A stretch of DNA of 33,130 nt, from IMG/VR virus record IMGVR_UViG_3300009152_000125, positions 1-33,130 of that record; one strand, 5' to 3'. Of the stretch, positions 1-27,252 are shown piece after piece. Each line of letters opens with the position of its first letter. The first letter of the stretch is position 1. A program made the position numbers and the translations under genes. Source of the DNA: a virus. The notes under the pieces are model-generated. The model ran no database searches, was not told the DNA's origin, and saw nothing but the letters and a program-made list of their open reading frames with translations.

Positions 1-1223
1 CGGAGAATGTTCATATCATCCTTGTATCCATCATCAGAATTGAGACGCGACACAGGAACCTTCAGGCTCTTATAAAGCTTCTTTAAGAAATATTCCAGAT
101 CTTCTAGTTTTCCGAGATTTTCACCTCCAGCGAGTCTATCAATCTTTGTTCCCTCGCTGCCCGCTCTTTTTGCAAACCAGAAATTATCAAGAATGCTTTG
201 AGGGTTAAATTTCTTAACAGCGCTACTACCCTGGGTATTGTCATATGTTTTTGAAGACCAATACTGGTTCATTAGTTTCTTGAGATACGCTTCAGCCTTA
301 GGTGGGGGCATGTTACCCACGTCCACGTTGAAAACAAGTCTCTCTGGGGCTCGAGCCAATCTGTATATAACAATAGCATCTTCAATTAAGCTTAGTTGTC
401 TGTATGCACGACGAGCATTCTCAATGAAGGGCAATCTGATTGTCTTGTTTTCGTTCCATATACCAGAGTTAATATATGTAACTTGGTTTTTATCCAAGGG
501 TACCAGTTCATAGTCCAGGATCTTCGATGGGTTCGTCTTATCGAATACAGGTTTACGTAACAAGAAGCCTTTAACCATCATATTCTGTACATTGCCAAAA
601 ATAGGATCAATAAATTCTGTTGGAATAGTAACTACACCAAGAATACCCTCTTCTTCATATTGTTTGTGGACAATGTGTTCAAAATACACTTCACCATCAG
701 TTAATAAGCTTCTGAAGTAATCCCACCCTCTGTTCTGCAGATCAAAGTAGTTAACATATTTTTGAAATTCTTTTTCCAGAGTCTCTTGATCGTCAATCTC
801 CAGATCCACATCTGGTGTTCTGAGATAGACTACCTTGCCATTTTTATCTTTGTTGATTGCTTCATCACAAATTTCATCAATAGCATCTGCAACTTCAGAG
901 AAAGCAGCCATGACTCTGTAATCACGCAAACGGGTGATCTTATCATGCTGTATGTTTGCATACATGTATTGTGTGAAATTGTTGTCCAAACCTACAATAC
1001 CAGCAGGATCAATGCTATTGAAATCTGTATTGGAGCTAATACTTTGACGAGACAGTGCTTCAGTCCGTTTGCTTCCTGTATCTTGGAAGACCTTGTATTT
1101 GGGGTTAAGCTTGTTGAGAGTATCTATGACAGTGTAGCTCTGGTATGGTAACTTGGAGTTAACATAATTCATTAAAGAACGACCAACTGTATTACCACGT
1201 CCTGTATCAGCATTATCAGCCAT
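1..1223 (-). CDS. 20: Portal vertex protein gp20 (partial)
   Basis: T4-type portal protein, the dodecameric ring at the unique capsid vertex through which DNA is packaged and to which the neck and tail attach. Translating the minus strand from the ATG at 1223 gives an unbroken frame of about 407 residues to the window edge, so the C-terminus is missing (T4 gp20 is about 520 residues). Family hallmarks seen: EDAIVIYRLARAPERLVF near residue 290, followed by VDVGNMPPPKAEAYL, then RAGSEGTKID, LAGGENLG, a LEDLEYFLKKLY stretch, and VPVSRL near the edge. The N-terminal part carries the usual ADAIDEICDEAI segment. A late-type promoter lies six bases before the ATG. The other capsid genes would be expected beyond the left edge. 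Identification is firm. Confidence 0.95.
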   Translation of the reverse strand, partial: MADNADTGRGNTVGRSLMNYVNSKLPYQSYTVIDTLNKLNPKYKVFQDTGSKRTEALSRQSISSNTDFNSIDPAGIVGLDNNFTQYMYANIQHDKITRLRDYRVMAAFSEVADAIDEICDEAINKDKNGKVVYLRTPDVDLEIDDQETLEKEFQKYVNYFDLQNRGWDYFRSLLTDGEVYFEHIVHKQYEEEGILGVVTIPTEFIDPIFGNVQNMMVKGFLLRKPVFDKTNPSKILDYELVPLDKNQVTYINSGIWNENKTIRLPFIENARRAYRQLSLIEDAIVIYRLARAPERLVFNVDVGNMPPPKAEAYLKKLMNQYWSSKTYDNTQGSSAVKKFNPQSILDNFWFAKRAGSEGTKIDRLAGGENLGKLEDLEYFLKKLYKSLKVPVSRLNSDDGYKDDMNIL

Positions 1224-1387: not shown

Positions 1388-1415
1388 TTGATACTTGTTT
1401 TTTTCACTGTATAAT
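1388..1415 (+). promoter_or_regulatory. Sigma70-like promoter (proximal of a tandem pair)
   Basis: TTGATA at 1388-1393, a 16-base spacer, and a perfect TATAAT at 1410-1415. The downstream ATG at 1425 is nine bases after the -10 box, so the transcript would have almost no leader. Confidence 0.6.
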
Positions 1416-1424
1416 GCTTTATAT

Positions 1425-2018
1425 ATGATTCTAGAAAATATCTCTTGTTATGACGGAACCCTTTTGCATCATCGCTTTGCTTACAAATACTTTCGTAAGA
1501 AATGCCTGCCTATTGGTAACATAATTGCTTTCAGAGCTCCTGCCAAAGTGGAGACAGAAGGTCTCATTGATCAAGAAGATGCTCTGAGCCAAGATTTCAT
1601 TTACAGTGACGACATGATTCATTTTCTGTATGAAATTCCTTTGATCACTGAAGCCTTTGGCGCCATTTGCTTTCAAAGACTGTTCAATACTAACATGGCA
1701 AATATTCTTAGCTCCAAATATCTCAAAGCCCCCATTGAAGTGGATGGTGATGATCTCATGGTGCACAAAGAATTTACCCAGGGTGGTATCACGCAACAAA
1801 AGGGCAAGTGCAGTGTGAGCATTGTGCATGTCAAGGACAATGCTGCATTGGGTCACACAGGCATCAACATTCAAGCTGGCAAGAAGGCCCCTGCATTTGC
1901 ATTCAGCACACAATTGTCAGTTCCTGATGTGCACAACTTCATGAGTGATGTCATCAATGCATTCTATCAGATCAATGATGACATCTTCATTGCCACCACA
2001 AAGATCATCAGTCATTGA
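1425..2018 (+). CDS. DUF366-like protein
   Basis: A 197-residue soluble protein that resembles the DUF366 family, whose members are of similar length. Conserved features recalled for that family and seen here are YDG near residue 9, a FAYKYF segment, IIAFRAP near residue 34, a GLIDQEDAL stretch, and a DDMIHFLYEIP segment near residue 62. The later half contains several His and Asp residues but I cannot name catalytic ones. I chose the ATG at 1425 over a longer upstream frame because it is where DUF366 similarity begins and it lies just after a TATAAT box. Its stop overlaps the start of the gp62 gene, so the two are translationally coupled. Biochemical role unknown from this sequence. The family assignment rests on memory and should be confirmed. 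Confidence 0.6.
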   Translation: MILENISCYDGTLLHHRFAYKYFRKKCLPIGNIIAFRAPAKVETEGLIDQEDALSQDFIYSDDMIHFLYEIPLITEAFGAICFQRLFNTNMANILSSKYLKAPIEVDGDDLMVHKEFTQGGITQQKGKCSVSIVHVKDNAALGHTGINIQAGKKAPAFAFSTQLSVPDVHNFMSDVINAFYQINDDIFIATTKIISH

Positions 2019-2287
2019 ACATATTTGATGTTATCAATGGCGTGGCTTTTGACAAGAAGGCCAATCTTCTGAGTCAAGCTGAAGATGAAAAGACTTATGC
2101 ACCATATCTTGTGAACAGATGGCTGTCCATGCTGGATGGTTCTGCTGCCAGAATCGTCAATGAGACGTTGAATCGTTTTGGACATGTCTTCACACCTGCT
2201 GAACAATACAAGTTTCTTGTCAATGTTCTGCCACGGTACAAACGACAGAGAATCAATTACATCAAAAAACCCAAGACGGATGCTTGA
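2015..2287 (+). CDS. 62: Clamp-loader small subunit (gp62-like)
   Basis: Small subunit of the T4-type sliding-clamp loader, which with gp44 opens the gp45 clamp and places it on primed DNA. The 90-residue product is short, as in marine T4-like phages, and shows the family signature: an F-D-V-I-N-G start, then YAPYLVNRWLSM near residue 29, a NETLNRFG stretch, and QYKFLVNVLPRYKRQR near residue 64 followed by a basic tail. The only in-frame start after the preceding stop is TTG at 2015, overlapping the TGA of the DUF366-like gene. gp44 is not in this window. Confidence in the family is good, in the exact start moderate. Confidence 0.8.
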   Translation: MNIFDVINGVAFDKKANLLSQAEDEKTYAPYLVNRWLSMLDGSAARIVNETLNRFGHVFTPAEQYKFLVNVLPRYKRQRINYIKKPKTDA

Positions 2288-2317: not shown

Positions 2318-2776
2318 ATGAGCAGACCTGCCATTGATCAATTAGCAACCAAGAAGAGTCACATTGATTTGAGTTCACATTCAAAGAACACCTTCAACAG
2401 TGTTTTCATAGGATATGACTTGTGTGATTTGCTTGATGACGTGATGTTGGTGGAGTTTGTGGATGATGGTGGTTCATCCAACACCATTGTGAGAGGTGGC
2501 ATTGTTGTGCCAGTGAATGCTGAAACCAATGCATGGCGCATTGGCAAGGTGATCTTGCAAGGAAGCAGTTGCAAGCTTGTGAAGCAAGGTGATCATGTCA
2601 TGTTTCCCAACAACATGGGGGTGCCCATTTCCAACATTGAAGTGGTAGGACATGGAACAGTTCGATATGGCATTTTCTTGAATGAACAAAGAATATTCGG
2701 GGTGGTGAAGCCCCGGGAAAATAATGATAGTATCCCTGACCAGCCTAAAGCCAATACTTCAAAACGCCGCTTGTGA
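2318..2776 (+). CDS. GroES-like co-chaperonin
   Basis: A 152-residue protein with a GroES-type beta-barrel in its middle. The stretch from about residue 40 has DDVMLVEFVDDGG, then a mobile-loop-like region, IVRGGIVVPVN (compare the T-x-G-G-I-x-x-P of GroES), WRIGKVILQG, VKQGDHVMFPNN and a closing ISNIEVVG. T4 itself encodes a GroES-like protein, gp31, which replaces host GroES on GroEL so that the major capsid protein gp23 can fold. By analogy this protein would act with host GroEL in capsid folding, but that is inference. The N-terminal 35 residues and the charged C-terminal 25 extend beyond the barrel. The final 53 bases overlap the next gene. Confidence 0.7.
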   Translation: MSRPAIDQLATKKSHIDLSSHSKNTFNSVFIGYDLCDLLDDVMLVEFVDDGGSSNTIVRGGIVVPVNAETNAWRIGKVILQGSSCKLVKQGDHVMFPNNMGVPISNIEVVGHGTVRYGIFLNEQRIFGVVKPRENNDSIPDQPKANTSKRRL

Positions 2777-3101
2777 GATCAAGTTCCCACGCCGCAGACC
2801 GGTGTTGGGGCGTCCTGCATTCAGAAGAATGTTGTGTACAAATTCCAACACCATTCTCAACAGCATCGATGGCAGAATCACATTAAATTACAGACCATCC
2901 AAAGGCACTCCCAAATATGATCCCAACCAGAAAAATCTTGCCATAGTGTGGGACATTCTTATGCAAGATTATCGCTGTGTGAATTGCAATAGCTGTGAAT
3001 TGATAACCACCATACCTGCAGGTGAAGCATTCTGGAAATATTTCAAAGACAATCTAATGAAGTTATCATCTTCACAGAAAACCATGTTTATGGATTCATA
3101 A
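2724..3101 (+). CDS. SH3-barrel-like protein (possible WYL_2/DUF2693 family)
   Basis: A 125-residue protein of a type common in marine T4-like phages. After a short N-terminal helix it has a very basic segment, FPRRRPVLGRPAFRRMLCT, near residues 21-39, then LNYRP, an AIVWDILMQDYRCVN segment and an ELITTIPAGEAFW stretch. The order RRMLCT, a variable linker, VWD plus an aromatic/Arg pair and a final ILE/LITxI strand resembles the small SH3-fold proteins grouped as DUF2693/WYL_2. I know of no assigned function. The ATG lies inside the end of the GroES-like gene (53-base overlap) because no later start would keep the conserved N-terminal part. The stop overlaps the next start as TAATG. Confidence 0.55.
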   Translation: MIVSLTSLKPILQNAACEIKFPRRRPVLGRPAFRRMLCTNSNTILNSIDGRITLNYRPSKGTPKYDPNQKNLAIVWDILMQDYRCVNCNSCELITTIPAGEAFWKYFKDNLMKLSSSQKTMFMDS

Positions 3102-3448
3102 TGAAAGCCGAAAGACTAGAAAAAGAGATCAATCACTTTCTTCAACAGAAGATCTCCATTAACATCAACAATAAAACTGTGAAGACAGGCAAGCTAATTC
3201 TTTTTTGCATCAAAGACTTCTACCTGGTGTTCACTCTCGGCATTGCTCATTCCAAGAAAATATTTGAAATTCCCTACCCTTATAATTTCACAATCAAAGA
3301 CAAAGGGATTACCCTGGACTATACATTGAAATCCTTTTCATCAAACATGCAAAGCATAGATAGCTATGTGAAGCTGTTGACACCCAAGAAGCCCAACAAG
3401 TATTTTAATTCATATGCTGAAATTATTACTGTAGAAGATGGGGCTTGA
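3101..3448 (+). CDS. Conserved phage protein of unknown function
   Basis: A 115-residue protein, mixed alpha/beta, beginning with a charged helix (KAERLEKEINHFLQQK) and continuing with beta-rich KTGKLILFCIKDFYLVFTLG and a FEIPYPYNF segment. No catalytic motif or membrane segment is seen. I have the impression that proteins with a GKLILF-IKDFYL-EIPYPY pattern recur in marine phages, but I cannot name a family. Translation is probably coupled to the upstream gene through the TAATG overlap. It sits between the SH3-like gene and the bS21 homologue, in the housekeeping part of the cluster. Confidence 0.7.
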   Translation: MKAERLEKEINHFLQQKISININNKTVKTGKLILFCIKDFYLVFTLGIAHSKKIFEIPYPYNFTIKDKGITLDYTLKSFSSNMQSIDSYVKLLTPKKPNKYFNSYAEIITVEDGA

Positions 3449-3451
3449 GAA

Positions 3452-3459
3452 AGTAAATA
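3452..3459 (+). promoter_or_regulatory. Possible late-type promoter before bS21
   Basis: AGTAAATA, two changes from TATAAATA, ends four bases before the ATG at 3464. Its position matches the other late-type sites, although the match is weaker. Confidence 0.35.
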
Positions 3460-3463
3460 GATT

Positions 3464-3667
3464 ATGGGAATTAACTGTGAAGTGAAGCTGGAGAAGAGCA
3501 AAGCTTCAAATAAGCTTTATTTTGACAAGAAGCTCAAGCAATTTTCAAATGAATTCAAGAGAAGCGGTGTCATAGAGGTTCTGAAGCTGCACCGATATTA
3601 CATGAAGCCTTCCAAAAGAAAGAGACTTTCCAGGGAAATATCTGCTGCCAAGTGGAAGTATTATTGA
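3464..3667 (+). CDS. rpsU: Ribosomal protein bS21 homologue
   Basis: A 67-residue basic protein with the layout of bacterial bS21: a short beta N-terminus (NCEVKLEKS), then the conserved FDKKLKQFSNEFKRSGVIEVL helix region that corresponds to the AL-R-FKR-x-x-x-x-GI-x-E family core, the Y-x-K-P turn (RYYMKPSKRKR), and a basic helical tail. Length matches cellular bS21 (about 60-75). bS21 binds the 30S platform near the 3' end of 16S rRNA and is exchangeable on ribosomes. bS21 is the ribosomal protein most often reported in phage genomes, including marine myoviruses. It probably enters host ribosomes during infection, which is inference. The gene is directly followed by late virion genes. Confidence 0.85.
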   Translation: MGINCEVKLEKSKASNKLYFDKKLKQFSNEFKRSGVIEVLKLHRYYMKPSKRKRLSREISAAKWKYY

Positions 3668-3688: not shown

Positions 3689-3696
3689 CATAAATA
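3689..3696 (+). promoter_or_regulatory. Late-type promoter for gp15
   Basis: CATAAATA ends four bases before the GTG at 3701. It begins the long late transcription unit of virion genes. Confidence 0.55.
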
Positions 3697-3700
3697 AAGA

Positions 3701-4549
3701 GTGAGACAGTATAGTTATTACTTTGAAGTCAAGGACTTGGTCCTTCAATTCTTAGCTGCTTTTGATAATGTGGTAATCAAGAGATATGACAAGAATCGCA
3801 ATCCTCTCACCACACAACAAGTAAGATATGTATACGCTCCAAAACAACGTGTTCTCTTTGATCTGGTCAATCCTGCACAAAATGTAACTCTTCCTTGCAT
3901 CAGCATTACAATCAACAGCATTTCACGCGACAACAATCGTGTCTTCAATAAGAACGCTGGTTTTTATGCACATGGTACACCAACTGAGCGAGCACCAGGC
4001 GGTCAATCCTATTATTACAAAGCACCAGTCCCAGTTAACATTGACATTTCCATGAGCATCATTGCTCGCTATCAATCAGACATGGATCAGATTCTTAGTA
4101 ACTTTGTACCTTTTAATAACCCCTACATTATCCTCAGTTGGACCATACCCAAAGAATTCAACCTTCCTTACACACAGGAGATTAGAACTGAAGTTGCGTG
4201 GAATGGTAACATCAACCTTGAGTATCCAACAGACATAAACGGTCAACAAAAAGCTCAGATTATTGCTAACACTGGCTTCACTATCAAAGGCTTTTTGTTC
4301 CCTGATCCAGAAAACCCAGTTAATAATATCTTCCGTATTGATGTGAGCATGACAGCTGTGAGTGCAGGCACACCACTTGAATATGGTGCCTACAGTACCT
4401 TAAAATCGCAGGTCATTACAGACCAGGACTCACTGTCTGCTTTCTACAATACAGATACATTCTCCGTTTCAGGCCGACCCGTTATAACTGGCGTGCAGTT
4501 ATACACCACACCAGCAAATCCCTACAACACACCCGATCCCACATCCTAA
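3701..4549 (+). CDS. 15: Tail sheath stabiliser and completion protein (gp15-like)
   Basis: Marine T4-like gp15, which caps the tail tube and sheath and joins the tail to the neck. The 282-residue frame opens with SYYFEVKDLVLQFLAAFDNV, close to the usual Y-F-Y-E...I-x-x-F-x-x-L-F-N-N start of the family, continues with Y-A-P-K-Q-R, then VTLPCISITINSISRD near residue 62, and has the PVPVNIDISMSIIARYQSD core near residue 107 with QILSNFVPFNNPYI after it. The GTG at 3701 is the only suitable start after the upstream stop, and the promoter position supports it. The C-terminal 50 residues, rich in Pro and Thr, extend beyond the recognisable part. Its stop overlaps the next ATG. Confidence 0.8.
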   Translation: MRQYSYYFEVKDLVLQFLAAFDNVVIKRYDKNRNPLTTQQVRYVYAPKQRVLFDLVNPAQNVTLPCISITINSISRDNNRVFNKNAGFYAHGTPTERAPGGQSYYYKAPVPVNIDISMSIIARYQSDMDQILSNFVPFNNPYIILSWTIPKEFNLPYTQEIRTEVAWNGNINLEYPTDINGQQKAQIIANTGFTIKGFLFPDPENPVNNIFRIDVSMTAVSAGTPLEYGAYSTLKSQVITDQDSLSAFYNTDTFSVSGRPVITGVQLYTTPANPYNTPDPTS

Positions 4550-8843: not shown

Positions 8844-8863
8844 TATAAATATAAATATAAATA
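8844..8863 (+). promoter_or_regulatory. Triple overlapping late-type promoter
   Basis: Three copies of TATAAATA overlap by two bases each (8844, 8850, 8856), the last ending four bases before the GTG at 8868. It may set several start points or give strong expression of the 966-residue virion protein. Confidence 0.6.
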
Positions 8864-8867
8864 AAGC

Positions 8868-11768
8868 GTGAAAACCGTACTCCAAGCCACATCTGCTACA
8901 ATAGTATTCACACCTGGTGTTGCCGGCGCCGGTACACTGGATTTTACTAATTTCTTTTCCACAGCACCTTTTGTCATCAATCGATTGATGGCTGTAATCA
9001 ACCAAACAAGAAATACAATCATTTATGCAGAGGCCCAAGCAGGATTAGGATGGACAAGCTGGAACCCCTCATCACATGTTTTAACTCTTAATTCTGATAC
9101 TTCCACACATGCAGCAACTGATATATTGCAAGTAATTTACGATTCTCCTTCAACAGCAGTGGTTCCAATTGAAGAATACTTTGATCCTGTCAACAAGAGC
9201 CGTGTATCGACACCTCAATCATTAATTGATACAGACTTTGAATATGGTGTACAATCTACCAAATGGGAGACTGTGAATTTAATTAATAATCGTCCAACGG
9301 CGTTTTATGAACCAATAGTTCCAATGGATCCAGCTGCTATTACAGCAATCAACACCACAGCAGGTTCAAGAATTATTAATGTAACATGCAATAGTACCGC
9401 GAGTGGTTTCGGGGGGTTATCAGGTATAGCAATTGGTACACCAATATTTGTACAAGATACTATTGAAAACAATGCAAACGGATGGTTTGCTGTTTCCAGC
9501 GTCACAACTAACACAAGCTTTTTATATACTGCAAAAGCACCAATGCCTTCAACTGGAAACATTCTCGATTTAAACAGAACATTAATATACCCAGGTAATT
9601 TTTACACAGGTTCAGGTATTCCGTTACAAGTAACAAATGCCTTTACGAATGTAGGCACCGCAATCACGTGCACAACACAATTTGCACACGGTCTTTATAC
9701 TGGAGATCCAATTTATGTTTTAGGTACAACCACAACAAACGGTCAAGGTTCCCCAAGCGGTGCATGGGTCGTAGCTTCTACTCCTAATGCAACACAATTC
9801 ACCTTCAACGTTATCAATACACCAGGTGGTACTATTGCAAATACTGTTGGTAATGTTAATCTATTTGCACGACCCGGGGGGTACAGCATACACCGTGCTT
9901 ATGATGGCGGGGTGCAATTTAGCAGTGGTTCTGGTCAACCCAACGCACAAACAATACGACAAACACGCAAATATTTTAGATATCAATCCGGAAAAGGCGT
10001 GCAATTTAGTACAGGATCTATTTTTAGACCCTCATTTCAACTCAACACACTCAGTGCTGCAAGTCTTACACTCAATGCCACAATAAGTGGCATATGCAAA
10101 GTACCCCATGGTATGCAGCCTGGCTCACAGATATCTGTAACTGATTCTACTGATTCAGCATACAATGGAACCTATGAAGTGCGCTCCGTTCCCAATGAAC
10201 TCACCTTTACATATGCATCCTCAGGCACACCTACAAACCTACAAGCCCAAGGATTTCCAATATTTGCATCACCTGGTCCAAATTGGGGTTGCACTGTTCG
10301 CCTTGGAATGTTCGATCAACAGAACGGTCTTTTCTTTGAACACGATGGACGAGATACATACCTGGTTCGTCGAGGCAGCGTGCAGCAGATTGCCGGTACT
10401 ATAAACATAGCAACCGGTACGAATACTGTCAACGGTACGAATACATTGTTCTCCAATCAACTTACCCCAGGGGATTTTATTGTTATAAAAGGCATGAGCT
10501 ATCGCGTGCAGTCAATTGCTTCAGATACACTTCTGTATATTCTACCTGAATACAGAGGACCAACAGTAACAAACGGTATTGTTACCAAAACAATAGATAC
10601 ACGCATAAAACAGGATCAATGGAATATCGACAGACTCGATGGCACAGGGCCAAGTGGTTACATCTTGAATCCAAACAAAATGCAAATGTTTTACATTGAT
10701 TACTCTTGGTATGGTGCAGGGTTTATTAGATGGGGCATACGTGCGAACAATGGCAATGTGCACTATGTTCATAAGATGTTGAATAATAATACTAATGCTG
10801 AAGCATACATGAGATCAGGTAATTTGCCTGCAAGATACGAAGAACATAACTTCTGCCCATCAACAATATTGACACAGACTCTGAACAGCGGCGACACAAC
10901 AATTTTTGTTAGCAGCGTGTCGAGCTTTCCCCCTGCAGGCACAGTGAGAGTAACAACACCTGGCAATACTAGCTCTGCAACAATAGAATATATTCGATAC
11001 AATACAAGAAACCTAGTTACAAACACACTTACAGGCTTGTCAAGAGCACAGACCGGTGGCAATGGAGTTGCACAGACATTTACCTATGCGGTACAAGCAC
11101 CAACTCAAGTTGAACTTGTCGGTACTTCTGGTGGAACTGCTTCATCAAATGTGCCGCCAGCCATGGCCATTTCACACTGGGGATCCAGTGTCATCATGGA
11201 TGGGCGGTTTGATGATGACTTGAATTTCGTCTTTAATGCTGGTCCTCCAGGTGCACAATCTATTGGTAGTGGCGCAAGAAACGGTATCATCAGTCTCAGA
11301 CTTGCCCCAAGTGTAGATTCTGGTAGAACTGGTCTACTTGGAGTGAGAGAAATTATCAACAGAATGCAATTGAGATTACGATCCATGGATATTCTCACCA
11401 ACAGTGCCACCGTTGGCATTAGAGTTGAGGTAATCTTGAACGGTAGAATACTGGCAGGTGGCGCCACATCATGGCAAAATGTTGGTGGATCTAGCTTGGC
11501 ACAAATTGCTTATCACCCTGCGGGAGTACAAATAGTGGGCGGAGAAAGTGTATTCGGATTCTTTCATTATGGTGGATCAAGTTATCAGGACTTATCTCAG
11601 GTCAGAGAGCTCGGCAACAGTACACTCGGTGGCGGTACAGTAAATGTAGGTTCAACAACATCAGCTAATTTGTACCCTGATGGTCCTGACGTTTTAACTA
11701 TTGTTGTGTCACCTAATGCTGGAGCAAACATTCAGTCCAGACTCTCTTGGACTGAGGCACAAGCATAA
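8868..11768 (+). CDS. Large virion structural protein of marine T4-like phages
   Basis: A 966-residue structural protein. Recognisable conserved stretches, in order: EEYFDPVNKSRVSTPQSLID then FEYGVQSTKWE (about residues 104-137), GGVQFSSGSG and KGVQFSTGSIF, a GMFDQQNGLFFEHDG-YLVRRGS segment (about 483-510), GTNTLFSNQLTPGDFIVIKG, MFYIDYSWYGAGFIRWG (about 607-623) and EAYMRSGNLPARYE (about 645-658). These are hallmarks of a large virion protein repeatedly found in cyanophage and pelagiphage myoviruses. Internal repeats of a T-x-F-A-H-G-L-x-x-G-D-P-I type occur near residues 260-480. The exact place in the particle is not known to me. Start is GTG at 8868, fixed by the promoter. Confidence 0.8.
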   Translation: MKTVLQATSATIVFTPGVAGAGTLDFTNFFSTAPFVINRLMAVINQTRNTIIYAEAQAGLGWTSWNPSSHVLTLNSDTSTHAATDILQVIYDSPSTAVVPIEEYFDPVNKSRVSTPQSLIDTDFEYGVQSTKWETVNLINNRPTAFYEPIVPMDPAAITAINTTAGSRIINVTCNSTASGFGGLSGIAIGTPIFVQDTIENNANGWFAVSSVTTNTSFLYTAKAPMPSTGNILDLNRTLIYPGNFYTGSGIPLQVTNAFTNVGTAITCTTQFAHGLYTGDPIYVLGTTTTNGQGSPSGAWVVASTPNATQFTFNVINTPGGTIANTVGNVNLFARPGGYSIHRAYDGGVQFSSGSGQPNAQTIRQTRKYFRYQSGKGVQFSTGSIFRPSFQLNTLSAASLTLNATISGICKVPHGMQPGSQISVTDSTDSAYNGTYEVRSVPNELTFTYASSGTPTNLQAQGFPIFASPGPNWGCTVRLGMFDQQNGLFFEHDGRDTYLVRRGSVQQIAGTINIATGTNTVNGTNTLFSNQLTPGDFIVIKGMSYRVQSIASDTLLYILPEYRGPTVTNGIVTKTIDTRIKQDQWNIDRLDGTGPSGYILNPNKMQMFYIDYSWYGAGFIRWGIRANNGNVHYVHKMLNNNTNAEAYMRSGNLPARYEEHNFCPSTILTQTLNSGDTTIFVSSVSSFPPAGTVRVTTPGNTSSATIEYIRYNTRNLVTNTLTGLSRAQTGGNGVAQTFTYAVQAPTQVELVGTSGGTASSNVPPAMAISHWGSSVIMDGRFDDDLNFVFNAGPPGAQSIGSGARNGIISLRLAPSVDSGRTGLLGVREIINRMQLRLRSMDILTNSATVGIRVEVILNGRILAGGATSWQNVGGSSLAQIAYHPAGVQIVGGESVFGFFHYGGSSYQDLSQVRELGNSTLGGGTVNVGSTTSANLYPDGPDVLTIVVSPNAGANIQSRLSWTEAQA

Positions 11769-12833: not shown

Positions 12834-13949
12834 TCAAACCACTTTGACAAAACCACCACTGTTCCACAGGGCACCAGTAGGCAAACCTACACTTGATGTG
12901 GGTAAATTGGACATTACAATCAAAGCACCAGTTGCTGAAACAGTGCCTACTACAGTCAATGCATTACTATTGTTATCTGTGCCAATGCCAACATTGCTGG
13001 GAATGTAAACACCGCCACCAGCACTAACTAAAAATTGTTCTGTACGAGTTGTGGAGAGTACATTTGTATCTGTACTGCCTTTCCATATCCAGGTCCTATC
13101 ATGGGCTGCATGCACATAAGTTCCTGCGGCATGGCTGTATTGTCTTGAAGCAAGCGTACTACCACCCTCAGCGTGGCTTGCAAACCCTGAAGCAATTGTA
13201 TTGAAGTTTTGTGCATGGCTGTTATTACCAGAAGCCAATGTATTTGTACCTTCTGCATGGCTTGCATCCCCTGAAGCAATTGAACCGAACCCCTCTTGCA
13301 CACTGCGCGTGCTCAACACTGTTAGAACAGTAATATTATTTGACTGCAATCTTAAACTATTTGTATCTGTTGTACCTACTATCACAGTGCCTGCATTGCC
13401 ACCATTTGCCACGTAACTTGCACTGTTGGTTTGATAAACAGAAGCAGTATTAAAAGCATTATTCCAATACGCACTATTAGTGGCAACTGTGGTTGCACTG
13501 GAAGTATTGCCCCATGCAGCACTATTCTGATACACATTAGAATATGTGCTATTCCAAGCACCGCTTAATATAGAAATACCGCTCACTTGGTTCCGTAAAG
13601 TAGCAACATAAGGCACACTCTGGAAATATGCTTCATTCCAATTGCCAGAAGCTGCAACAATATCCGATAAATTAGGTTGAATGCCCCAGAAACCGCTGAA
13701 ACTACTGACCGTGGTGTATGTGCTGTTCCATGATCCAGTATTTGGACTCATCAAGCTCACACCGTTAAAGGCATAATCATATCGGCCACTGTTGGCACGC
13801 AATGTGTCAGTTGTGTATTGATATGGTAAATTCAAAGCAGTGATGGAAGCAATGGATGTTTTTGTTTCAGAAGCATTTCTGTAGCCGACTAAAAAGTCCG
13901 TTCCTTGAGGAGTGACTGTTGTAAAAGTACCAAAATTCACGTTTGCCAT
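12834..13949 (-). CDS. Tail fibre with YadA-like head repeats
   Basis: A 371-residue trimeric-fibre protein on the opposite strand to its neighbours. The N-terminus (TPQGTDFLVGYR, residues 13-24) matches that of 5148-6590. Residues about 70-175 form repeats with a W-N-x-x-Y core (GSWNSTYTTV, GNWNEAY, GAWNSTYSNV, SAYWNNAF). Residues about 217-288 carry five copies of a 14-residue repeat of the type x-S-x-A-S-G-x-x-S-H-A-E-G (for example GDASHAEG, NNSHAQ, FASHAEG, QYSHAAG), the left-handed beta-roll of YadA heads. A GNVGIGT-type strand (NVGIGTDNN) and LTVVGTVSATG follow. A late promoter lies six bases before the ATG, back to back with the one for 13987. Confidence 0.75.
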   Translation of the reverse strand: MANVNFGTFTTVTPQGTDFLVGYRNASETKTSIASITALNLPYQYTTDTLRANSGRYDYAFNGVSLMSPNTGSWNSTYTTVSSFSGFWGIQPNLSDIVAASGNWNEAYFQSVPYVATLRNQVSGISILSGAWNSTYSNVYQNSAAWGNTSSATTVATNSAYWNNAFNTASVYQTNSASYVANGGNAGTVIVGTTDTNSLRLQSNNITVLTVLSTRSVQEGFGSIASGDASHAEGTNTLASGNNSHAQNFNTIASGFASHAEGGSTLASRQYSHAAGTYVHAAHDRTWIWKGSTDTNVLSTTRTEQFLVSAGGGVYIPSNVGIGTDNNSNALTVVGTVSATGALIVMSNLPTSSVGLPTGALWNSGGFVKVV

Positions 13950-13955
13950 ACACGT

Positions 13956-13963
13956 TATTTATG
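13956..13963 (-). promoter_or_regulatory. Late-type promoter (minus half of a divergent pair)
   Basis: The minus strand reads CATAAATA, ending six bases before the ATG at 13949. Confidence 0.6.
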
Positions 13964-13972
13964 GATAAATGT

Positions 13973-13980
13973 AATAAATA
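13973..13980 (+). promoter_or_regulatory. Late-type promoter (plus half of a divergent pair)
   Basis: AATAAATA ends six bases before the ATG at 13987. Only nine bases separate it from the minus-strand site. Confidence 0.6.
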
Positions 13981-13986
13981 ACCGAT

Positions 13987-14922
13987 ATGGCCTTACGCAA
14001 AATTCAGTCCGAAATGGTTAGCAATGTTGCTAATATAGGTTTTAATACAGGCACAGCTTTTACCAGTCTTTCTGTCGTAGGAACCCTTAATGCTGGAATA
14101 CTTTCTGCAACCACAATATTTGGCGCAATTCCAAGTGCTACTAATTTTGCTAGTGTTTATTCAACTTATAATCAACTGAGCGGTTCTTATGTAACAAATA
14201 ATTACAATGGCAATGTCACCATATTAGGCAGTCTCTCTGTGTTAGGTGATATCACCTACATTGATACAGCTGTCACAGTTACAAGTGCTTTGAGCGTCAT
14301 AAACCTTGGCACAGGACCTGCACTTGTAATAAACCAAAAAGGCTCGCAACCAATTGCTAATTTTCTGGATGATGATGTTTCAAGTCTCTACATTGCCGAT
14401 GGTGGCAATGTGGGCATCAACATAACAACCCCACTTGCCAGATTCACTGTGAATGGTGCAATCAGTTCTTCCGGCAATGTAACTGCCAAGGATATCACCA
14501 CATCAACATTTTTTATCTCTGGTGGCAAGGATCTTTCGCAGGTTATACGAGACAATTATAGCGATGTACCAACCACATACACCACATTTCATGGAGTCGC
14601 AAACAAAACTCTGCCTTATTCTTCAACACGACCTTTCTCAGCAAATTGGGATTTGAATAATTACCAATCTGCTACATTGTATCTGTCTGCAGGAAATGCG
14701 CTATTAAGAAATCCAACCAATCAAGTGGCCGGCGGTACATATGTATTATTTGTACGAACACTGTCTGGCAATGCTCTGTTGAGTTTTGATTCTTTGTATA
14801 GATTCCCAAATTCTGCCCCACCCACGGTAAGTCAAGGTCCAAGTGCTGTAGATATCTTCTCCTTCTTGAGTGATGGACAATATATGTATGGCACAACAGT
14901 CCAGAACTTCACCTGGGCATAA
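13987..14922 (+). CDS. Tail-fibre-like protein
   Basis: A 311-residue fibre protein. It shares modules with the other fibres: FTSLSVVGTLNAG near residue 26 and ILGSLSVLGDI near residue 79 (compare FGSLSVVGTLSAAN in 6955-8829), then a GNVGINITTPLARFTVNG strand pair near residues 140-160. The C-terminal third is a beta domain (GGTYVLFVRTLSGNALLSF) ending in aromatic residues, which may be the receptor-facing tip. It is separated from the giant adhesin gene by six bases, so both are likely made from the promoter at 13973. Confidence 0.7.
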   Translation: MALRKIQSEMVSNVANIGFNTGTAFTSLSVVGTLNAGILSATTIFGAIPSATNFASVYSTYNQLSGSYVTNNYNGNVTILGSLSVLGDITYIDTAVTVTSALSVINLGTGPALVINQKGSQPIANFLDDDVSSLYIADGGNVGINITTPLARFTVNGAISSSGNVTAKDITTSTFFISGGKDLSQVIRDNYSDVPTTYTTFHGVANKTLPYSSTRPFSANWDLNNYQSATLYLSAGNALLRNPTNQVAGGTYVLFVRTLSGNALLSFDSLYRFPNSAPPTVSQGPSAVDIFSFLSDGQYMYGTTVQNFTWA

Positions 14923-17900: not shown

Positions 17901-20685
17901 CTACACTGGTGGTACCAACACCTTTAACCCTGATCCTGCTGCTGGTCAATTGGTACTGGCTCTACCCTTGGATAGCTACAACACCCATTTTGATGTGAGC
18001 AATGAAATTAGTAACAGAATTTCTCAACCCAAATCACTGTACACAACCACAGGTGTCACCTACACATCCATATCAGGTGCCGCTTTCAATGGAACCACTG
18101 GCTACATTGAACTATCTTCACATCCTGATTTTGATTTGGGCATAGCAGGCAATTGGACCATTGAATGGTATCAGTTTTGGAATGTTTTGACAGGCTTTCA
18201 AACTGTGTGGAGTAACAACTACACTACAATACCAAACTTACTAATACAATCTCAAAATAACCTGGGTAGGTATCAGCTGTACACAAATGGTGGCACATCC
18301 ATCTTGAACGAGGGCAATGCACCCACCCCCAGTCTGTGGTATCATTATGCAGTTGTGAAGAATGGCACCACATACACCATATTCCGCAATGGATCAGCAA
18401 CTGGTGTGACAACGTATAATGCTGTAACCAATGCTGGTAGTTCCACATTTCGCCCTGAAATAGGTCGTGGATCAGGTACATACTTCCTTAATGGTAACAT
18501 ACGTGATTTTAGAATATACAAAGGATGGGCCAAGTACACCACCACATTCAACCCTGCCACAGCTACAACTGCAGTGGTAGCAACCACAGGCACAGGGTTT
18601 GACAAATCCATCAATCTGGGCTTTCAACCTGATCTGGTGTGGGTCAAAGCCCGCAACATTGGCAGAACTTCTCACATACTTGTGGATTCAGTACGCGGTG
18701 GCACCAGCACACTCTCTGCCAATAGCTCTGATACAGCAACCATAAGCTCCAATAATATTACTTTTTTCCAAACTGGCTTCACTGTGGGTGGATCAGTATC
18801 AGCCAATGCAACTATCATACCTGCTGTACCAGCATTCTTTTACGGCACCGGGGAGAATACCAACGGTCAATTGGGTCTTGGAGATAATAGCGATAGAAAC
18901 CGATTTAACCCACTAACTGGCAATTGGTCACAAATGGTTGGTGGTTTAGTCCATGCCATGGCACTAAGTGCAGGTACTACCAAATGGTTTGGCACAGGAT
19001 CCGACGGCTACGGTCAATTGGGTCTTGGAAATAACCCTGGCTATAATACATATGGTGGTTCAAGTGTAAAATATAATACATTTACTGCATTAACAGGGGA
19101 TTGGTCACAAATGGCATGCGGTAAGTTCTTTACTATGGCACTAAGTGCAGGTACCAACAAATTATTTAGTACAGGTTATAATGAGTATGGTCAATTGGGA
19201 ATAGGTACTTCTGATGTTTTTGGTAGCCAAAATGTAAATCTATTCACAACACCACTCACAGGCAACTGGTCACAGGTGGTCTGTGGATTTATCCACACCA
19301 TGGCATTGAGTGCAGGTACAACTAGGTGGTTTGGCACTGGGTTTAATAATTCTGGTGCACTAGGACTGGGAGATAATAGCGATAGAAATGTATTTACATC
19401 ACTCACAGGCAATTGGTCTCAAATGGTTTGCGGTGATAGCTTTACTATGGCACAGTCAGCGGGTACAACTAGGTGGTTTGGTACTGGATCCAACCCATTT
19501 GGTGCATTAGGTCTTGGAGATGAAAGCGACAGAAATGCGTTTACACCACTCACAGGCAATTGGTCTCAAATGGTGTGTGGTGGTTACCACACCATGGCAT
19601 TGAGTGCAGGTACAACTAGGTGGTTTGGCACGGGGCGTAATGGTGTAGGTGCACTAGGACTGGGAGATAATAGCGATAGAAATGTATTTACACCACTCAC
19701 AGGCAATTGGTCTCAAATGGTGTGTGGCGGTAATCACACCATAGCGTTAAGTGCTGGTACTACCAAATGGTTTAGTACTGGGTATAATAATTCTGGTGAA
19801 TTGGGGTTAGGAGATAATAGCGATAGAAATGCATTTACACCACTAACAGGTGATTGGAGCCAGATGACAAGCGGATATGGTTTCACCATGGCATTAAGCA
19901 TTTCATCTGCAGAAAGTCAAACATTACGTACAGCTACAAACCCCTTCAACCCACAACTCAACACACCTGGTGCCACATACACTGCATATGGTTGGAAGCG
20001 CAATGCATTGGCAGGGTTTGATATTGTTACAGTTTTCAAATCTAGCGCTACCAGCCAAATATTCAGTCATAGCCTAGGCAAAAAACCAGCCATGATGATT
20101 GTGAAAAGTAATAGCTGGTTCTCTTCACCTTGGTTTGTGTATCATTCTTTTGCTAATGTCTCACCAGCAACTGTAGCTACATGCTTTGATCAAGCCGCCC
20201 CGTTTGTTTACTCTAACGGGTGGAATAATACTGAACCTACAGCAAGTCAATTTACTCTTGGAAATGTGTCGGACTGGTTTAACAGTCCATTGATTGTCTA
20301 TTTGTTTGCTGAAATACCTGGATTCAGTAGCTTTGGAAGCTACACAGGCAATGGCAGTGTAGATGGTCCATTTGTGTGGTGTGGATTCAAGCCTCGATTT
20401 GTTTTAACGAAGAAGGTTAATGGTACCAGCGATTGGCTCATCTGGGATTCTTCGCGCGGACCAACTAACCCCATCAGCCCACATTTCTCAGTGAATAATA
20501 ATGCTGCAGACAATTCAACAGCTGCACCCACATACAATGGTTACATAGATTTTACTGCAACTGGATTCAAACTAAGACTGTCAAGCCCGCCAAATGAAGC
20601 TTCAGTACCTGCAAGCATATACATGTTTGCTGCATTTGCAGATAATCCCTTTGGCAGAGTACCAGGTCAAGTACTAGCAGTATAA
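14929..20685 (+). CDS. Giant adhesin: LamG, SPRY and RCC1 propeller domains
   Basis: A 1918-residue multi-domain adhesin, presumably a tail fibre. Reading from the N-terminus: LamG-like 1 (about 18-225, with QYFDGYMTEINYVDGQAL), LamG-like 2 (about 320-485), LamG-like 3 (about 538-713), the phage-type link DVPANWGTDNGG (about 744), a SPRY-like domain (about 795-958, with VSSGKWYWEV, DIIGFALDMDNG and SVNFGQRPFVY), LamG-like 4 (about 1043-1210), a beta domain with GFQPDLVWVKARN (about 1228), seven RCC1 repeats (about 1304-1660), then the rest of that beta domain and a related copy with FKPRFVLTKK. LamG and SPRY folds commonly bind sugars or proteins, so host recognition is a fair inference. The RCC1 block appears to be inserted into another domain. 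Confidence 0.8.
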   Translation: MAWPVIPLAFSGSTPQFQVSRSLRFDGTSSVLAGKNRFEGNRQKFTQSMWIKRARLDVTQWLSINPSATYGAGLYIHSDNRLWAFINYIESTNTWQGIIATQQSLRDPTSWYHINLAVDTTQALPQDRIKLALNGSTVTSLITSYPGSAGILSYPALGTQTNFNTQFVSYDINALVGGPGFRYIGGWPGQYFDGYMTEINYVDGQALDPIAFGRYDENGMWVPRRYNGNFGPNGYYLPLNDNSSRGALGLDGNQLNSVDPFWPFTVFHLQTRTGIPFGNNNTFIDSSNTGATITRTGNASQGTFNPYSLFASEAATRGGSVYFDGNSQLDAGSNANFAFGTNSYTVEFWVYSTVNMNTYAAGQGPVFICNDATNGWGIFNNSTAGQGITLFTRNIGNTYPTGVQLPSNRWNHIAVSRSAPAGNAFAIWLNGTRILVGGDSTNWSITGPLKIGNISTAGFSLRGYMAGLRISNNEAIYDPASTTITVPTAPPTNIGSPSTVFLLNANNAAVYDATGFHNLNTLNAAAASQAQTLYGNSSLFLDGSTLAACVSSNIYNNYLVNFAANDFTVESWLWLQTAPTGSTPTALGFIASVHDNTSTSTWTWYVNVNRTISFYGVGGVGLAVTSNNAIPLQTWVHVAVVRNGDFLTIYINGVADVTTRVAGGTYTAESIASLVIGRRYQGAAPTVIDAFNGHIYDLRITRAARYLGNFTPPTQALPTTGSTQGFWPYNIQLGGHREMDSMLDVPANWGTDNGGILSGTMRGNYATISNVNKSAGFVASNGGLDVSSAAAGNVWRPATATHAVSSGKWYWEVAINTSPVGNGIMIGVANTRWDAFTENPSVTYPGGDAALNSWGYYINGNMYRNNAGTAYGTSYTANDIIGFALDMDNGTFYASKNGVWQGINNASNPVVSNPSIGRNPVNQISGRTFPLTGFHFPAFGVYGGDTYSVNFGQRPFVYADGPALSAGFKPICTTNIIPPLNNPHSFFEATSYTGGTNTFNPDPAAGQLVLALPLDSYNTHFDVSNEISNRISQPKSLYTTTGVTYTSISGAAFNGTTGYIELSSHPDFDLGIAGNWTIEWYQFWNVLTGFQTVWSNNYTTIPNLLIQSQNNLGRYQLYTNGGTSILNEGNAPTPSLWYHYAVVKNGTTYTIFRNGSATGVTTYNAVTNAGSSTFRPEIGRGSGTYFLNGNIRDFRIYKGWAKYTTTFNPATATTAVVATTGTGFDKSINLGFQPDLVWVKARNIGRTSHILVDSVRGGTSTLSANSSDTATISSNNITFFQTGFTVGGSVSANATIIPAVPAFFYGTGENTNGQLGLGDNSDRNRFNPLTGNWSQMVGGLVHAMALSAGTTKWFGTGSDGYGQLGLGNNPGYNTYGGSSVKYNTFTALTGDWSQMACGKFFTMALSAGTNKLFSTGYNEYGQLGIGTSDVFGSQNVNLFTTPLTGNWSQVVCGFIHTMALSAGTTRWFGTGFNNSGALGLGDNSDRNVFTSLTGNWSQMVCGDSFTMAQSAGTTRWFGTGSNPFGALGLGDESDRNAFTPLTGNWSQMVCGGYHTMALSAGTTRWFGTGRNGVGALGLGDNSDRNVFTPLTGNWSQMVCGGNHTIALSAGTTKWFSTGYNNSGELGLGDNSDRNAFTPLTGDWSQMTSGYGFTMALSISSAESQTLRTATNPFNPQLNTPGATYTAYGWKRNALAGFDIVTVFKSSATSQIFSHSLGKKPAMMIVKSNSWFSSPWFVYHSFANVSPATVATCFDQAAPFVYSNGWNNTEPTASQFTLGNVSDWFNSPLIVYLFAEIPGFSSFGSYTGNGSVDGPFVWCGFKPRFVLTKKVNGTSDWLIWDSSRGPTNPISPHFSVNNNAADNSTAAPTYNGYIDFTATGFKLRLSSPPNEASVPASIYMFAAFADNPFGRVPGQVLAV
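18840..19905 (+). repeat. Seven RCC1-type repeats within the giant adhesin
   Basis: Seven tandem units start near 18840, 18990, 19165, 19330, 19477, 19624 and 19771. The last four have an exact period of 147 bases (49 codons). Each unit follows F-G-T-G-x-N-x-x-G-x-L-G-L-G-D then LTGNWSQMVCGxxHTMALSAGTT. Seven is the blade number of a closed RCC1 beta-propeller. The last units are also strongly alike at the DNA level, which points to recent tandem duplication or conversion. Confidence 0.85.
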
Positions 20686-21378: not shown

Positions 21379-22047
21379 CTATTTTGAGTAATCCACATCT
21401 TCTTTGGCCAAGTAGCCTCCAAGAATCTTGCTCTCAACCACAAGATTTTCCACAATTTCTTCAGTCATGGTGTCACATGTGTTCATGCAATCCACCACCA
21501 TGAATCCCAAAAACTTTTTATTCAAAGATTTGATTGCAAATATATGAAAACCTTTCACTCCACGATCATTCCAAAATGCCTTGAGAGTGGAGCTGTTATC
21601 TTGTACAATTGCAGTGTTGTGAACGCCATATTGACCATCTTCTTTCACTTTCTTCAAGATGGAAGCAAACACTGACACTGGCACATTCTGGATGACACTC
21701 AATTCACTGGAAATGCCAGGACGGCATGCTTCATATGTTAAGCTAAACTTTTGAAATTTATGAGTTTTATCTGAAGGATAAAAAGAGCCACCATTGTGAA
21801 ATTGTGCAATCCAGACCCTGTCAAAATTATATTCAGACCGAATATTCTCTATGCGCTGATCAATCATTTCATTGGCATGCAGCAATTTGAGAATTTCGTC
21901 TGTTTCTTCTTCTTCTATAACAACTTTCTTGCGAGAGAATTTTTCTGAAGCCCATGAAGCAACCACAGGACTCAACACACCTGTGATGAAAGCAGTTACA
22001 ACCAAGGTAAGATTGCGGGCAAACTCTGCATTATAGAGAAAATCCAT
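21379..22047 (-). CDS. Membrane-anchored GAF-like domain protein
   Basis: A 222-residue protein with one N-terminal membrane helix (about residues 11-33, LTLVVTAFITGVLSPVVASW), an acidic linker, a helix, and then a GAF-like domain: YNFDRVWIAQFHNGGSFYP (about 74-92), a FQKFSLTYEACRPGISS segment, VPVSVFASIL, and a closing GFHIFAIKS-LGFMVVDCMN strand pair. The DRVWIxQFHNGG core recurs in proteins of large marine phages, where it is annotated as GAF-like. GAF domains usually bind small ligands, but no ligand can be inferred. A late-type promoter precedes it. Confidence 0.6.
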   Translation of the reverse strand: MDFLYNAEFARNLTLVVTAFITGVLSPVVASWASEKFSRKKVVIEEEETDEILKLLHANEMIDQRIENIRSEYNFDRVWIAQFHNGGSFYPSDKTHKFQKFSLTYEACRPGISSELSVIQNVPVSVFASILKKVKEDGQYGVHNTAIVQDNSSTLKAFWNDRGVKGFHIFAIKSLNKKFLGFMVVDCMNTCDTMTEEIVENLVVESKILGGYLAKEDVDYSK

Positions 22048-22054
22048 ACATATT

Positions 22055-22062
22055 TATTTATA
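22055..22062 (-). promoter_or_regulatory. Late-type promoter
   Basis: A perfect TATAAATA on the minus strand, ending seven bases before the ATG at 22047. Confidence 0.65.
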
Positions 22063-26752: not shown

Positions 26753-26760
26753 TATAAATA
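26753..26760 (+). promoter_or_regulatory. Late-type promoter
   Basis: A perfect TATAAATA six bases before the ATG at 26767. Confidence 0.65.
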
Positions 26761-26766
26761 ACATAT

Positions 26767-27252
26767 ATGGCCAAAGACTTCAAATTGATGGGTGAAGCCT
26801 ATTTGCAGGTACGTAAGAATTTATCTGCTCCTTCCACAGAAGTAATTGCTGAAGCAGGTGGTACTGCAACAGGGTCCGCCAATGTTGCAAAGATGCAACA
26901 ACAAACACAGCAACCCGCGCCTGCAACTAGTGCTGGTGTTGCAGCTGCAGGAGGAGAGGGACCGGGTGCCACAGCTGTTGATTCAACCAAAACAAAGACA
27001 GATTCAAAGACAGATTTTGATGCAGCTGCTACAGCTTATTTTAAATCAATGGGTGTAACTGATGCCCAAATTAAGACTTTCTTAGATAGTACACATGCAC
27101 AATTAAACGGATTCAAGGGACCACAGGCCGCTAGCGGTACACAGCAATACATGCCACAAGGCGCACAACAACCTGCTGCAGCTGCTGCACCAAACATGCT
27201 GGCACAGGCCGGGCAACGTGGAATTAACAAACCTGCATGGGCATCGAGATAA
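26767..27252 (+). CDS. Ala/Gln-rich virion or scaffold-like protein
   Basis: A 161-residue low-complexity protein. It opens [19 protein letters not shown], an amphipathic helix of a kind seen at the start of several marine T4-like structural proteins, followed by long Ala-, Gln-, Gly- and Thr-rich linkers (for example [10 protein letters not shown]) around one folded-looking helical segment ([19 protein letters not shown], about residues 84-102). The tail is Pro/Gln/Ala-rich. The composition suggests a flexible structural, tape or scaffold role, but no function is assigned. It is followed, eight bases on, by the EF-hand protein with its own late promoter. Confidence 0.6.

Follow-up and report, generated by a model that had tools for sequence, protein, structure and literature searches.

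The ribosomal protein bS21 is the commonest ribosomal protein encoded by viruses. That of the marine T4-like phage HTVC008M enters E. coli ribosomes, and such ribosomes yield about 5% of the control GFP, for which Mizuno et al. (2019, PMC6375957) suggested that incompatibility or a lack of factors could be responsible. Chen et al. (2022, PMC9723584), who studied freshwater Bacteroidetes phages (clades a-e), proposed that in late infection phage bS21 gives preference to phage transcripts. Ribosomes of F. johnsoniae that lack bS21 initiate more on mRNA with a strong Shine-Dalgarno (SD) sequence and less on mRNA without SD (2023, PMC9976891). We found no earlier work in the open-access literature that ties phage bS21 to a property of phage mRNA or links it to leaderless phage mRNA. 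Phage bS21 itself is already known, and the new part of our analysis is its pairing with predicted leaderless mRNA.

The window analysed here is an IMG/VR virus record of 33,130 bases, a fragment of a T4-like myovirus. The gp20 portal, gp15 and NATAAATA late promoters place it among the T4-like phages; a homologue of the late sigma factor gp55 was detected in the relative G007 (E 1e-19) and none was found in the 33-kb window fragment. Relatives of the window phage were collected via the protein h2724. Features are given with coordinates, strand and evidence.

3..1223 (-): gp20 portal, cut by the window end (Pfam Portal_T4, 2.4e-79)
1237-1230 (-): CATAAATA late-promoter motif, 6 nt before the gp20 start (motif match)
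1388..1415 (+): sigma70-like promoter TTGATA-N16-TATAAT, 9 nt upstream of the ATG of DUF366 (sequence)
1425..2018 (+): DUF366 protein, opens the conserved block (Pfam 7.8e-23; synteny)
2015..2287 (+): DNA polymerase clamp loader subunit (phrog_225, 7.1e-9)
2318..2776 (+): GroES-like co-chaperonin (phrog_3188, 5.7e-6)
2724..3101 (+): h2724, clade-specific protein (no isolate match)
3101..3448 (+): h3101, hypothetical protein directly upstream of bS21 (synteny)
3452..3459 (+): AGTAAATA, putative late-promoter-like element, 4 nt upstream of the ATG of bS21 (sequence comparison)
3464..3667 (+): bS21 homologue, 67 aa (Pfam, PHROG)
3689..3696 (+): CATAAATA late-promoter motif, 4 nt upstream of gp15 (motif match)
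3701..4549 (+): tail sheath stabiliser gp15, with GTG as start codon (Pfam T4-gp15_tss, 1.2e-19; phrog_227)
8844..8863 (+): three overlapping TATAAATA boxes with a 6-base period, of which the third precedes the virion gene start (8868) by 4 nt
8868..11768 (+): virion structural protein, 966 aa (phrog_5838, 4.3e-261)
22055..22062 (-): TATAAATA, 7 nt upstream of the gene at 21379-22047 (-)
26753..26760 (+): TATAAATA, 6 nt upstream of the gene at 26767

The gp20 gene on the minus strand is followed by DUF366, the clamp loader subunit, the GroES-like protein, two hypothetical proteins, bS21, gp15 and tail and virion genes, and the same block including bS21 is present in four longer contigs (G001, G003, G005 and G007). 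This agrees with the initial annotation, which had located bS21 just before the late virion genes. KW(K/R)xY-type bS21 genes also occur at other genome positions, namely as L280 (G070), L281 (G055) and G050:11695-11889, and the gene has therefore moved within the clade. In relatives without bS21 at this place (e.g. L238 and L262) the gap between h3101 and gp15 is often filled by a segment of about 1.7 kb.

The open frame at 3464-3667 had been read as a full-length bS21 homologue. Its identity was confirmed by matches to Pfam Ribosomal_S21 (PF01165; E 2.4e-7, 30.8 bits, above the gathering cut-off of 27) and to PHROG 21469 'ribosomal protein S21', while 'full-length' is fair with the qualification that S21 homology spans residues 20-57, with about 8 additional N-terminal residues and a short C-terminus. 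Because its score falls just under the NCBIfam TIGR00030 equivalog cut-off (28.0 vs 28.95 bits), we regard it as a divergent S21-family protein and not as a called equivalog. It is the single S21 of the whole record, and more than 20 other IMG/VR contigs encode a bS21 at the same position, the family sharing an invariant C-terminal K-W-(K/R)-x-Y signature. Synonymous differences to the relatives are near saturation (pS 0.63-0.98) and pN is low (0.11-0.26), which argues for purifying selection and thus for a maintained protein. A search for bacterial relatives of the window-type bS21 found none. The AlphaFold model consists of three helices at poor confidence (pLDDT 59.5), and from this weak model no PDB fold match was obtained. 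Gapless alignment pairs Tyr54 of F. johnsoniae bS21 with A62, in a column that is variable and not aromatic across the family; the invariant Trp64 lies two residues beyond it. Judging from these comparisons, this uncultured clade of T4-like phages has a genuine and conserved bS21 of its own, which belongs to a diverged type.

How does this locus compare with the described systems? HTVC008M likewise is a T4-like myovirus with a phage-borne bS21 and late promoters placed for leaderless mRNA, but its bS21 is host-like (65.7 Pfam bits vs about 30 in the window) and its remaining genome uses SD (31-36%). The phages of Chen et al. (PMC9723584) are also large aquatic myoviruses with bS21 near structural genes, and the idea put forward for them is the same late preference for phage mRNA. 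Their bS21 is, however, no more than about five genes away from TerL, portal, protease and MCP, and its residue 54 is aromatic, whereas the window combines gp15 with the DUF366/clamp-loader/GroES block, a variable Tyr54 column and promoters that are not of the Bacteroidetes type. Host bS21 of F. johnsoniae belongs to the same protein family with the same expected site on the 30S platform; unlike the window gene, its rpsU is autoregulated through a strong SD (PMC9976891), and Bacteroidetes bS21 lacks the KW(K/R)xY C-terminus. The bS21 of G067 comes from the same phage clade as the window but is a separate, bacterial-type protein. In the jumbo phages L203 (PA5oct, 18764-20183) and L321 (Salicola phage SCTP-2), bS21 adjoins clpX, with clpS nearby; if a protease were to act on host bS21, this would agree with a speculation in PMC9976891.

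Late promoters of the window are placed unusually close to genes when compared with T4. An ORF start lies 3-8 nt downstream of 15 of the 18 NATAAATA motifs, while such placements averaged 0.22 and never exceeded 2 in 200 dinucleotide shuffles; the motif evidence for leader-poor late genes had thus been understated in the initial annotation. The same spacing was found for 49 of 102 motifs in G007 (4 of 102 in the reversed sequence), whereas the distance between motif and start peaks at 21-32 nt in T4 and at 15-26 nt in S-CRM01. The T4 late promoter is an 8-bp box that starts at -13, roughly one helical turn upstream of +1 (PMC2988020); where the start codon follows the box by 5 nt, it therefore coincides with +1, leaving no leader. 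Promoter spacing thus predicts that many late mRNAs of the window phage have their 5′ end at the start codon or no more than about 3 nt away from it, and such mRNAs would be leaderless. Some relatives have TATAAATA, CATAAATA or GATAAATA at the position of AGTAAATA before bS21, which suggests that the gene carries a late-promoter-like element of its own and would be made at least partly late. Elsewhere in the window, a 37-nt gap (13950-13986) between the diverging genes 12834-13949 (-) and 13987-14922 (+) holds an ATAAATA box facing each way, and would act as back-to-back late promoters.

SD sequences are rare in these genomes. A strong SD was found at 1 of 30 window ORFs of at least 100 aa and at none of the 17 of at least 150 aa, in line with the SD poverty claimed for them; the share is 0-9% across the bS21 contigs of the clade, and five of six family bS21 leaders checked are without strong SD. 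The accompanying expectation that phages with bS21 have a lower share of SD starts fails. With starts chosen heuristically, and with Melnitz and PA5oct represented by 40 kb each, the share was 36% in HTVC008M, 37% in Melnitz and 25% in both Mosig and PA5oct, vs 34% in T4, 22% in C48C1, 7% in S-CRM01 and 37% in G021, all without bS21. On the basis of these four bS21 phages we rejected the idea that bS21 generally goes with low SD use.

Does bS21 then track leaderless architecture itself? Matches to TATAAATA-N3-8-ATG were compared with a reversed control in isolates. The marine T4-like isolates with bS21 showed an excess (HTVC008M 9 vs 1, Mosig 6 vs 0, Melnitz 4 vs 1; sum 19 vs 2), the gap being exactly 5 nt at seven annotated starts of HTVC008M; Mosig and Melnitz have many leadered late promoters as well. 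No excess of leaderless placement was seen in ten isolates without bS21, with 7 matches vs 11 in the control (T4 3/5, S-CRM01 0/0, C48C1 2/0, P-SSM2 0/2, Syn9 0/0, KVP40 1/0, phiM12 0/1, Cr30 1/0, S-PM2 0/3 and Microcystis phage MaAM05 0/0). The 248-kb relative G021, in which no bS21 was found, has SD at 62 of 162 starts and no leaderless peak. The jumbo phages PA5oct (tested with ATAAATA-N4-7-ATG) and Salicola SCTP-2 encode bS21 and gave no excess over the control, though the T4-type motif may not be theirs. Among the phage records, AGRM01000002.1 is a genome contig of Salmonella enterica subsp. houtenae, probably a curation slip.

Within the clade the picture is less clear. Twelve representatives with bS21 at gp15 have 42 of 87 motifs in leaderless placement, and 24 in which none was seen have 61 of 173; partial records such as G049, G064 and G069 show the placement without a bS21 having been found. 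Three of eight long records without bS21 at gp15 carry one elsewhere (G055, G067 and G070), about as expected if most genomes had one copy, and so does the shorter G050. Absence from partial records therefore proves little, and the within-clade test is not clean. HTVC008M, Mosig and Melnitz are moreover mutually related, so that the correlation has few independent points. The correlation between bS21 and leader architecture thus stands among isolates but is blurred by clade contigs that show the placement without bS21 at the locus: judging from these sequences, bS21 appears to track leaderless architecture in broad terms.

A further pattern concerns sigma70-type promoters (TTGAY-N16-19-YATWRT). 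These lie 3-8 nt before starts in 27 of 48 cases in G007, 12 of 28 in G005 and 9 of 28 in G003 (0 of 18 in the reversed control), and in the window they lie a few nt before start codons at 1388, 24559, 24893 and 28601 (+). Such placement was not seen in HTVC008M, Mosig, S-CRM01 or G021. By analogy with T4-type biology these would be the early promoters, and early mRNAs of the family are predicted from their position to be leaderless as well. The host would then read leaderless mRNA before late bS21 appears, and leaderless initiation could not wait for bS21; no other observation speaks as strongly against a late switch. Since the promoter at 1388-1415 lies ahead of the operon whose final gene is bS21, this protein may be made early too.

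The initial annotation drew on the role of bS21 in hiding the anti-SD sequence of Bacteroidetes ribosomes, a premise that is unproven for this phage. Bacteroidetes-type promoters (TTTG / TAnnTTTG) are not enriched in G007 (12 vs 7 in the reversed control), one of the 12 having an ORF start within 60 nt, and TTGAY/YATWRT promoters are abundant instead; the Tyr54 position, aromatic in the anti-SD-occluding bS21 of Bacteroidia, is not aromatic in the window protein, as described above. A Bacteroidetes host had been suggested by the bacterial-type bS21 of the clade member G067 (IMGVR_UViG_3300007512_001664), for which 31 of 33 genome hits are titled Bacteroidetes/Bacteroidales and which has Phe at position 54, and was then weakened by the promoter type. 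A cyanobacterial host was rejected, psbA being absent from every clade record searched and present in S-CRM01. Neither the clade marker h2724 nor P0001 was matched in isolate phages, and none of the isolates falls within the clade.

The reading we tentatively favour, at somewhat less than even odds, is that the phage protein is incorporated into the 30S subunit and supports SD-independent initiation. Its observed basis consists of the bS21 homology and conservation, the absence of SD and the promoter-to-start spacing. Made at least partly late in infection, phage bS21 would, by analogy with HTVC008M bS21, enter the host 30S at the platform by the 3′ end of 16S rRNA, replacing or adding to host bS21. 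Subunits carrying it would be kept in a state that initiates without SD pairing, and we infer an effect on mRNA choice in favour of phage mRNAs, which are without SD sites and in many cases have a predicted 5′ end at or near the start codon. The proposal that bS21 tunes ribosomes in this way is partly supported, by the SD-poor late genes with their predicted leaderless mRNAs, by the late-promoter-like element at bS21 and by the comparison of isolates, but is weakened by the leaderless placement of early promoters and by an SD share that is not lower in bS21 phages. The data fit a supporting role, in which ribosomes are held SD-independent, better than a late on/off switch.

Nearly as likely is a supply of bS21 without any selectivity for mRNA, in which the phage copy of this protein, one of the least tightly bound of the 30S subunit, keeps ribosomes replete once host expression stops. 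bS21 is exchangeable between ribosomes and required for normal initiation (PMC6375957, PMC9976891), it also occurs in phages with ordinary SD use, and the lack of a strong SD in most checked family leaders would let the phage gene escape autoregulation of the Bacteroidota rpsU type, if the host has such control. The host is, however, not known to belong to the Bacteroidota, and simple supply does not need the divergence from bacterial bS21 seen in the 8 extra N-terminal residues and the invariant KW(K/R)xY end.

Considerably less probable is a leaderless architecture shaped by adaptation to a host in which leaderless mRNA is translated well, with bS21 unrelated and both features common in phages of aquatic hosts. 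The like placement of early and late promoters, the sharing of this architecture by clade members without bS21 at the locus and the mutual relatedness of the bS21 isolates with leaderless late genes would all fit, but the ten bS21-less isolates show no such excess, and HTVC008M uses SD at about a third of its genes despite its leaderless-placed late promoters, so that host preference alone does not explain this phage. An action outside the ribosome, whether in RNA binding, as part of the virion or as a decoy for some host factor, appears improbable. The divergent ends of the window protein would be consistent with it, and virion packaging was raised as a possibility by Chen et al. 2022 (PMC9723584), but the S21-matching residues 20-57 are well conserved and the bS21 of another phage does enter ribosomes (PMC6375957).

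For phage bS21 in general, a T4-like clade with promoters at the start codon offers a concrete mRNA feature against which its function can be tested. The leaderless link is also a possible reason for the low GFP activity of ribosomes with HTVC008M bS21, although, as the authors of that study noted, this bS21 and E. coli ribosomes may simply be incompatible. More speculatively, and rather doubtful at present, phage bS21 and leaderless late mRNA could form one strategy in aquatic T4-like phages, by which ribosomes with phage bS21 drop SD-led host mRNA and accept a 5′-terminal AUG, with bS21 acquired more than once; the KW(K/R)xY and bacterial types in the window's clade and the host-like type in marine phages would be the products of such repeated acquisition. 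If this is true, the ribosome itself would be retuned to phage messages.
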